Assembly (NCBI GenBank): GCA_030429345.1
Contig: JAUIFJ010000007.1
Location: forward strand, 62,001 to 126,000
DNA from: a bacterium
GTDB lineage: Bacteria > CAIWAD01
Length of the DNA stretch: 64,000 bases
Reading direction: 5' to 3'
The notes beneath the pieces were generated by a model. The model was given only the letters and a program-made list of their open reading frames with translations. It ran no database searches and was not told the origin of the DNA. The position numbers were made by a program, and so were the translations under genes. Of this stretch, positions 51,196-52,822 are shown in pieces. The first letter of the stretch is position 1. Each line of letters starts with the position of its first letter.

Positions 51196-52314
51196 TCAGT
51201 CCCCGCGATAGGGCGCCAGCATGGCGTCCCGATAGGCGGCCCATTCACCGGCCAGGATCGCCCGGCGGGCGCCTCGGACCAGTTCCAGGAAGTAGTGCAG
51301 GTTGTGGATCGTGCCCAGGCGCATGGCGCTGAACTCTTCCACGTGATACAGGTGCCGAATGTAGGCCCGGTCATAGGTGCGGCAGGTGTAGCAGGAGCAG
51401 TCAGGGTCAATGGGCTGGTCGAAGGAATCCTTGTAGCGTGCCGCCTTGGCGCTGAAGCGTCCCTGCGTGGTGAAGAGGGTCGCCTTGCGCGCGTTGCGGG
51501 TCGGCAGCACGCAATCGAACTGGTCCACGCCCAGGTCGATGCTTTCCAGGATATCCTCCGGGGTGCCGACGCCCATCAGGTAGCGGGGCCGGTCCTGCGG
51601 CATCTTCGCGCAACATAGCTCGGTCATTTCGCGCATTGCCGTCTTGCTCTCGCCCACGGAAAGGCCCCCAATGGCCATGCCGGGCCAGTCGCGTTCGAGC
51701 AGGCCGGCCAGGCTCTCTTCGCGCAGGTCGCCGTATACGCCGCCCTGGATGATCGGATACAGTTCCTGGCGGTGTCCGTAGAGCGGCTCGCTGTCCTGCC
51801 AGGCCCTGTGGCAGCGGTGCGCCCAGCGCGTGGTGCGCTGCAGGCTCTGGATCACGTAGTCCCTTTCGGCCGTTCCCGGGGGACATTCGTCCAGCACCAT
51901 CATGATGTCGCTGCCCAGGCTGCGCTGAATGCCGATCACCGATTCGGGGGTGAAGACATGCCGGCTGCCGTCCAGGTGGCTGCGGAACTCGGCCCCCTCC
52001 TCGCGCAGCTTGCGCAGGGAACTCAGTGAAAAGATCTGGAAACCGCCGCTGTCGGTCAGGATCGGCCGCTTCCAGCGCATGAACCCGTGCAGACCGCCGG
52101 CCCCTTCGAGGATTCCGGTGCCGGGCCGCAGGTAGAGGTGATAGGTATTGCCCAGCAGGATGGTGGGGTCCAGGTCCTCCAGGTCGCGCCCGTCCAGGGT
52201 CTTGACGCTGGCCCGTGTTCCGACCGGCATGAAGACCGGCGTCGGCACTTCCCCATGGGCCAAACGCAGCACGCCGGCCCGGGCCCGGCCATCTGTTGCC
52301 TGCAGTTCGAACAA
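51196..52314 (-). CDS. tgt: Queuine tRNA-ribosyltransferase (TTG start)
   Basis: TPVFMPVGTRASVKTL; ILLGNTYHLYLRPG; LTDSGGFQIFSL; C..CYTC zinc site. Confidence 0.97.
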   Translation of the reverse strand: MFELQATDGRARAGVLRLAHGEVPTPVFMPVGTRASVKTLDGRDLEDLDPTILLGNTYHLYLRPGTGILEGAGGLHGFMRWKRPILTDSGGFQIFSLSSLRKLREEGAEFRSHLDGSRHVFTPESVIGIQRSLGSDIMMVLDECPPGTAERDYVIQSLQRTTRWAHRCHRAWQDSEPLYGHRQELYPIIQGGVYGDLREESLAGLLERDWPGMAIGGLSVGESKTAMREMTELCCAKMPQDRPRYLMGVGTPEDILESIDLGVDQFDCVLPTRNARKATLFTTQGRFSAKAARYKDSFDQPIDPDCSCYTCRTYDRAYIRHLYHVEEFSAMRLGTIHNLHYFLELVRGARRAILAGEWAAYRDAMLAPYRGD

Positions 52315-52335
52315 TTTTTGTTTCCAAGATGAAGA

Positions 52336-52456
52336 CCTCGCACGGAGGCGCTGAGAATACAGAGATCACAGAGGAAAGTAGGGCAAAAATTGAAATGACG
52401 CAGTCAGACTGAAGAAGACTCTGTGTTCTCCGTCTTCTCAGCGCCTCCGTGCGAGG
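52336..52456. repeat. Inverted CACGGAG-unit element B upstream of tgt
   Basis: Left arm CCTCGCACGGAGGCGCTGAGAATACAGAGATCACAGAGG; right arm reverse complement CCTCGCACGGAGGCGCTGAGAAGACGGAGAACACAGAGTC (first 22 nt identical). Confidence 0.85.
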
Positions 52457-52469
52457 CCTTCAGGAAAAG

Positions 52470-52508
52470 GATGAAAAGAAAAAGCCCGTCCTGTAGCGAG
52501 GACGGGCT
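52470..52508 (-). terminator. Intrinsic terminator of small sigma-54 transcription unit
   Basis: Minus strand AGCCCGTCCT-CGCTAC-AGGACGGGCT followed by TTTTCTTTT. Confidence 0.85.
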
Positions 52509-52669
52509 CATTTCCTTGGGACCGACAAGGGCAGTGTCAGCCCCCGCAGGCGGGCAAAACCGAAAGGACGAGAGCCTTTTGAGCGAGGCTCTTCCCCACG
52601 GCGGCCCGGCGGGTTTTCATTGAACTCCACGATGTGGAAGTCAAGGAAAAAGGGCTACCGGACCGTACG
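52485..52669 (-). ncRNA. Putative small RNA / short mRNA transcribed from a sigma-54 promoter
   Basis: Bounded by sigma-54-like promoter (52679-52695) and intrinsic terminator (52470-52508); no annotated gene. TSS estimated from the -12 element. Confidence 0.45.
52537..52620 (-). CDS. Putative 27-aa small protein MKTRRAAVGKSLAQKALVLSVLPACGG
   Basis: Basic N-terminus plus hydrophobic segment; GGAG 4 nt before ATG, sequestered in hairpin TTGACTTCCAC-ATC-GTGGAGTTCAA. Not in the ORF track (too short). Confidence 0.35.
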   Translation of the reverse strand: MKTRRAAVGKSLAQKALVLSVLPACGG

Positions 52670-52678
52670 CTCTGTCTG

Positions 52679-52695
52679 AAGCAAGTTGTATGCCA
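52679..52695 (-). promoter_or_regulatory. Putative sigma-54 promoter TGGCATACAACTTGCTT
   Basis: TGGCA and TTGCT boxes at exact spacing; TTGA-N3-TCAA inverted repeat upstream (52719-52729). Confidence 0.6.
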
Positions 52696-52822
52696 CTTTT
52701 TACAAGTACTGCGCACCCTTGATTTTCAACGCTTTGCGAGTGGGCGTTCGTGCGGCCTGCCACGCCATGACCGGATTCTGAACAGCGGGCGACGGATCAG
52801 GGGCAGCTAGGCGCCTTCCCGG

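Follow-up and report, generated by a model that had tools for sequence, protein, structure and literature searches.

A likely sigma-54-dependent small RNA gene upstream of tgt in an FCB-like candidate lineage

Known sigma-54-driven small RNAs and the unit upstream of tgt

The unit described here lies between an MGMT-like gene and tgt on the minus strand of a 64-kb stretch of bacterial DNA (contig JAUIFJ010000007.1; the whole stretch is referred to as the window), and its closest described counterparts are small RNAs (sRNAs) driven by sigma-54. The Qrr sRNAs of Vibrio have a LuxO/sigma-54 promoter, a structured sRNA and a terminator, and they pair at ribosome-binding sites. The window unit shares the sigma-54 promoter, the structured RNA and the terminator. 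However, Qrr RNAs are Hfq-dependent and usually multicopy, whereas this RNA is single-copy in each relative and its genome is without detected Hfq. In E. coli, the sRNA GlmY is driven by sigma-54 and QseF (PMC7073468). GlmY is likewise intergenic, of a similar size class and driven from a -24/-12 promoter that depends on an enhancer-binding protein (PMC7073468), but the window RNA showed no GlmY match at relaxed Rfam thresholds and differs in structure and lineage. The crcZ, crcX and crcY RNAs of Pseudomonas and Azotobacter, driven by CbrB and RpoN, are also sigma-54-driven non-coding RNAs with a dedicated enhancer-binding protein (PMC8657755). Those RNAs titrate Hfq-Crc, whereas Hfq was not detected in the window genome, and no sequence relation to them was found. 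A PreQ1 riboswitch would resemble the unit as a structured RNA with a terminator adjoining a queuosine-pathway gene (tgt); the window RNA differs in having no Rfam match, and no consistent switching structure was found for it.

Taken as a whole, the unit is best explained as a stand-alone, sigma-54-dependent small RNA gene, which we consider likely on the strength of sequence comparison of the promoter, the structure, the terminator, their conservation, a common upstream motif and the presence of rpoN. An initial annotation had proposed a small RNA and/or a small membrane peptide under sigma-54 control. The RNA part of that proposal was supported by the conserved promoter, structure and terminator together with rpoN and enhancer-binding proteins, whereas the peptide part was not, the reading frame not being conserved. 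The features of the unit are as follows, in window coordinates.

52779 to 52784, minus strand: putative enhancer half-site TGTTCA, at -89 from the first base of the promoter (from the family motif TTGAACA/TGTTCAA)
52679 to 52695, minus strand: sigma-54 -24/-12 promoter TGGCAT-ACAAC-TTGC-TT (from sequence, alignment with relatives and the presence of rpoN)
52475 to 52669, minus strand: likely small RNA gene, ~195 nt, from the predicted start to the terminator T-tract (from fold, covariance model and covariation)
52602 to 52665, minus strand: stem-loop 1, with an outer helix P1 (52665-52657 with 52610-52602) around an inner hairpin (52650-52614) (from the minimum free energy fold of the window sequence and the architecture of the relatives)
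52560 to 52601, minus strand: stem-loop 2 (P2), GAGCC-loop-GGCTC (from folds and covariance model; 3 pairs with two-sided changes)
52552 to 52567, minus strand: conserved segment CCUUUCGGUUUUGCCC, partly single-stranded and Shine-Dalgarno-complementary, proposed as base-pairing seed (conservation observed, role putative)
52537 to 52620, minus strand: 27-codon open reading frame (ORF) of the initial annotation, reading MKTRRAAVGKSLAQKALVLSVLPACGG, judged not to be a gene (frame not conserved, no Pfam match)
52522 to 52551, minus strand: stem-loop 3, variable in sequence, with a hairpin predicted here in all four sequences (from single-sequence folds)
52482 to 52509, minus strand: intrinsic terminator stem, -20.5 kcal/mol, followed by a T-tract to ~52472 (from a terminator scan)

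Promoter, homologs and structure of the RNA

Within the class, the analysis covered five genomes; G001, G002 and G003, referred to as the relatives, are three genomes of the family of the window organism. The window genome comprises 4.24 Mb and is 98% complete. The motif TGGCAT-N5-TTGC was located at 52695-52681 on the minus strand, and the -24/-12 spacing originally claimed for 52695-52679 was borne out. Transcription is predicted to start at ~52669. The promoters of the relatives (TGGCAC-GATTG-CTGC, TGGCAT-GATTG-ATGC and TGGCAC-GATTC-GTGC) all align with that of the window, and their GG and GC elements as well as the spacing between these are kept. A search for rpoN and enhancer-binding proteins in the window genome was positive for both: RpoN is encoded (Sigma54_DBD, E = 2.3e-58), together with 17 strong and 2 weak Sigma54_activat domains. 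A stringent sigma-54 pattern, TGGCAYRNNNNTTGCWT, gave 5 matches in the 4.2-Mb genome and 0 with the reversed control. One of these precedes a gene identified as flgB by its N-terminal sequence, a location that would be expected of sigma-54.

In the window, the unit is flanked by the MGMT-like gene upstream (53140-52823; PF01035) and by tgt downstream (52314-51196; PF01702). A plain blastn search with 301 nt, run on 97 other genomes, gave no clear homolog, and the homologous units emerged only when the syntenic regions upstream of tgt were inspected, using the tgt orthologs of the three relatives (69-70% identity) to locate them. All three have the same gene order of MGMT-like gene, -24/-12 promoter, RNA-sized interval (~190 nt), strong terminator and tgt; the promoter/terminator pair is therefore conserved at the same place in each. 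Among public genome contigs, the conserved core was found in two records only, which correspond to G002 and G003. The number of identical columns per 30 among the three relatives was 2-9 upstream of the promoter, 15-29 in the RNA and 4-6 in the spacer to tgt, with one RNA interval over the variable stem-loop 3 at 14. Stem-loop 2 plus CCCTTTCGGTTTGCCCTA reached 29 of 30, above the MGMT-like coding sequence. Because identity rises at the promoter and drops after the terminator, conservation is limited to promoter, RNA and terminator.

The three relatives alone, without the window copy, served to build a covariance model. Its best match in the window was at 52666-52551 on the minus strand (20.6 bits, E = 0.0046, next best 0.55; these E-values are rough). 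The match spans all 121 model positions, and both its interval and its register are those that the promoter predicts. When the model was run with stricter filters over 98 genomes, one copy was found per relative and only 4 other matches appeared up to E = 1. These weak matches, in G004, G007, G013 and G033 outside the family, all lie inside long ORFs and were judged to be chance. Given so few other matches and a syntenic interval of 400 nt, the window match is unlikely to be a chance one. In the alignment of the four sequences, standard pairs fill 97.2% of the pair cells, and two-sided changes occur in 11 pairs, compared with 4.7 in shuffles and at most 2 with slid partners. Stem-loop 1 contributes 3 such pairs in P1 and 5 in its inner helix. 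Of the searches among relatives suggested at the outset, blastn gave no clear homolog and the small-ORF reading frame was not conserved, whereas covariance model and covariation were positive. No Rfam family, 6S RNA included, was reached at the gathering score by the window RNA, and the sub-threshold matches centre on the terminator. The RNA would be a new family of sigma-54-driven sRNAs, a kind already known, and is so far restricted to one bacterial family.

Independent folding of the window sequence alone gave the same architecture as the model. For the predicted transcript (52669-52470) the folding energy is -92.5 kcal/mol with z = -6.2, and none of 200 dinucleotide shuffles was as stable. 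The strong intrinsic terminator with T-tract reported before at 52508-52470 was recovered in the terminator scan, and the terminators of the relatives at the equivalent place are strong as well (-19.0 to -24.4 kcal/mol). The previously noted hairpin TTGACTTCCAC-ATC-GTGGAGTTCAA is present, pairs at 10 of 11 positions (once as G-T) and ends at the ATG at 52620. It had been read as sequestering a ribosome-binding site; the hairpin stands, but not this role, since it is the inner part of the larger conserved stem-loop 1, whose inner hairpin contains both it and the ATG.

Upstream motif, regulon and possible mode of action

Counting 7-mers de novo in the DNA preceding three families of sigma-54 units and three additional promoters placed TGTTCAA/TTGAACA at the top. 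Upstream of the RNA, the relatives have this motif at -89, -90 and -69. Another sigma-54 unit, unrelated to the RNA, has it at -81 to -83, where in the three relatives it is joined by an inverted partner at -109 to -111. The window holds a single occurrence of TTGAACA or its complement. The inverted repeat TTGA-N3-TCAA, initially put forward as the activator site, is present (TTGA-AAA-TCAA, 52729-52719) but was rejected as enhancer site, as it is not conserved and the common motif is TTGAAC/TGTTCA.

The composite pattern TTGAAC-N56-86-TGGCAY-N6-TGC gave 16 matches in the five genomes and 0 in the reversed control. Seven of the 16 are the two known units. Among the other nine, L088 and L092 are not gene-start-like, L093 is ambiguous and 6 lie before plausible genes, five of them for exported proteins that appear to have signal peptides and one for a protein of 76 aa. 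Since this upstream motif and a sigma-54 promoter are common to exported-protein genes, the RNA is probably a member of a sigma-54 regulon with many exported proteins. TTGAAC plus sigma-54 promoters were observed before genes at L089, L091, L099, L101, L102 and L103, several of whose products have NPFNP/type IX secretion system (T9SS)-like C-terminal tails. Por_Secre_tail (PF18962) scored above the cut-off in L091. It scored below the cut-off in a protease-like gene adjoining the unit and in L035, a locus found by the stricter promoter pattern and not by the TTGAAC composite. The NPFNP motif was seen by eye in further exported proteins.

Hfq was not detected in the 98%-complete window genome (no PF17209 match, control genomes positive), nor CsrA in the five genomes of the class (no PF02599 match), which removes the two best-known partner systems. 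The part best conserved between the relatives and the divergent window copy is CCUUUCGGUUU(U)GCCC, located after stem-loop 2 and complementary to purine-rich ribosome-binding sites. Judged from this complementarity and conservation, the CCUUUCGGUUU segment is probably a pairing seed. Exact 11-mer complements of the seed were searched in the window genome, and 3 of the 5 non-self sites lie at apparent ribosome-binding sites. A dps-like gene (L078, G000:C75:142319; named from sequence) shows 14 nt of perfect complementarity between its ribosome-binding site and the conserved segment; the gene was picked up by the seed match itself, and the match was seen in this genome only. Neither dps nor any other seed-complement site is claimed as a target, since purine-rich sequence is to be expected at such positions and no site is conserved. 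In the pairing tests with co-regulated mRNAs, p values of 0.01 for flgB and 0.02 for MGMT are unremarkable among 21 tests.

In the mechanism we infer, an enhancer-binding protein, probably bound at the TTGAAC/TGTTCA sites ~70-90 bp upstream, would activate sigma-54 RNA polymerase at the -24/-12 element. Transcription would yield an RNA of ~195 nt with three stem-loops that ends at its own terminator. The RNA would most likely act in trans without Hfq or CsrA, its conserved CCUUUCGGUUU pairing with ribosome-binding sites of target mRNAs, and would form a co-regulated, probably repressing, arm of the sigma-54 regulon that also turns on exported proteins. More tentatively, this FCB-like candidate lineage may have an undescribed sigma-54 regulon, with TTGAAC as enhancer site, in which the RNA serves as post-transcriptional arm. 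The regulon would switch on this RNA along with small proteins and exported ones, several of the latter having T9SS-like sorting tails; pairing would then involve a chaperone-independent, anti-Shine-Dalgarno-like segment. Descriptions of sRNAs from uncultured FCB-like lineages are few, and regulation by base pairing without Hfq is still poorly understood. A conserved sRNA whose predicted promoter, activator site and co-regulated genes are defined from sequence is directly testable, and the TTGAAC-spacer-TGGCAY-N6-TGC pattern is a simple finder for more such units.

Several observations weigh against a trans-acting sRNA gene. The window copy is divergent and was missed in the genome-wide model run with stricter filters. 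The comparison comprises four sequences, three of them close relatives, and the four-sequence alignment was fitted to the model and so leans towards structure. The window copy of the upstream motif is shortened to 6 matching letters and has the opposite orientation. Candidate targets are not conserved, with dps absent from the relatives, and pairing of the seed with co-regulated cargo mRNAs did not exceed shuffles. The position of the unit, directly before tgt and on the same strand in all four genomes, would be expected of a cis-regulator as well.

Alternative explanations and further sigma-54 units

Instead of base pairing, the main activity of the RNA might be that of a protein-binding decoy, as with GlmY, CrcZ or CsrB. 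Sigma-54-driven decoy RNAs are known (PMC7073468, PMC8657755), and the long conserved stem-loops with conserved loops (GUGGGGAUA, and CCGCUAC in the relatives) resemble protein-binding structures. However, the apical GUGGGGAUA loop is absent from the window copy, and with Hfq and CsrA undetected the best-known decoy targets are missing; ProQ, KH or RRM proteins and RapZ were not searched for. We regard a decoy function as doubtful, and a CsrA decoy was ruled out by the absence of CsrA.

The main rival to an sRNA gene is a leader or attenuator role, in which the sigma-54 transcript would act in cis as attenuator or riboswitch and control the queuine tRNA-ribosyltransferase gene tgt by a conditional terminator. 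Besides the shared position, the short distance of only ~45-85 nt from terminator to tgt start in the relatives argues for this role, as it leaves scant room for a separate promoter. On the other hand, the terminators are strong in all four genomes, and folds of the four sequences truncated by the 3' arm of the terminator gave no consistent antiterminator, although folding alone is not decisive. Conservation does not extend into the spacer to tgt, which in the window holds a 133-bp inverted repeat, and Rfam gave no match to PreQ1 or any other riboswitch. The MGMT-like gene is equally syntenic, so that linkage to tgt may be mere kept gene order. A tgt leader is accordingly considered unlikely.

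At 52314 in the window, tgt starts with TTG and there is no ATG, whereas the relatives start with ATG-GAA (MEL..IF). The start region is 2 nt shorter than in the relatives and adjoins the inverted repeat. The repeat lies between terminator and tgt at 52330-52462, with 44-nt arms (91% complementary) and a 45-nt spacer. A CACGGAGAACGCGGAGAAGACGGAGA-type sequence similar to it is also found 3' of the L034 unit described below, and it therefore looks like a dispersed repeat.

Translation of MKTRRAAVGKSLAQKALVLSVLPACGG as a small membrane peptide, with the hairpin covering its ribosome-binding site, is very improbable. The 27-aa ORF from 52620 to 52537 is itself present as described, with GGAG four bases before the ATG, and small proteins are indeed encoded by other sigma-54 units of the genome, among them a conserved one of ~49 aa with a hydrophobic tail. 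The ATG lines up across the four sequences because it belongs to a GAUGAA stretch whose partner in the stem is UUCAUC. Past it, however, one-base insertions or deletions shift identical nucleotides into different frames among the relatives, which have no ORF in common at the unit. Substitutions keep base pairing, and the product of the ORF had no family match in Pfam. It is just as improbable that promoter-like, hairpin and terminator sequences came together by chance, although GC-rich DNA does yield chance sigma-54-like matches and hairpins; this reading is contradicted by conservation of the set in three relatives, the covariance-model match, the fold z score of -6.2 and covariation.

Further sigma-54 units were observed in the course of the analysis. 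A second orphan unit, U2 (L080/L032, G000:C11:24104 downwards, minus strand; L081, L082 and L083), has excellent promoters (e.g. TTGGCACGCAAGTTGCTC), a conserved RNA of ~200 nt without a conserved ORF, and a terminator. Its promoter is flanked or spanned by the inverted repeats AAGCCCATTCG/CGAATGGGTTTCTT and GCAAAATCAGA/TTTGATTTTGC, and it had no Rfam match. A third unit, U3, lies ~600-650 nt upstream of U2 (L080-L083) and encodes the conserved ~49-aa protein, which has a hydrophobic C-terminal segment (MEKIFEVHSFELGNSPAIRQMARRVAFHSNLLISSPVFLILLLVLCLFGM in G001) and no Pfam match; in the relatives, a TGTTCAA...TTGAACA inverted repeat is located upstream. At L034 (G000:C25:127004), a sigma-54 promoter is followed by an ORF of ~63 codons (MLHWHPSEPYARQHRANLRRRDIRWPERERALEHREWGRAWVTLSLLLVGSWFSLAGLLSLLG) with a hydrophobic C terminus and then by a terminator-like hairpin.
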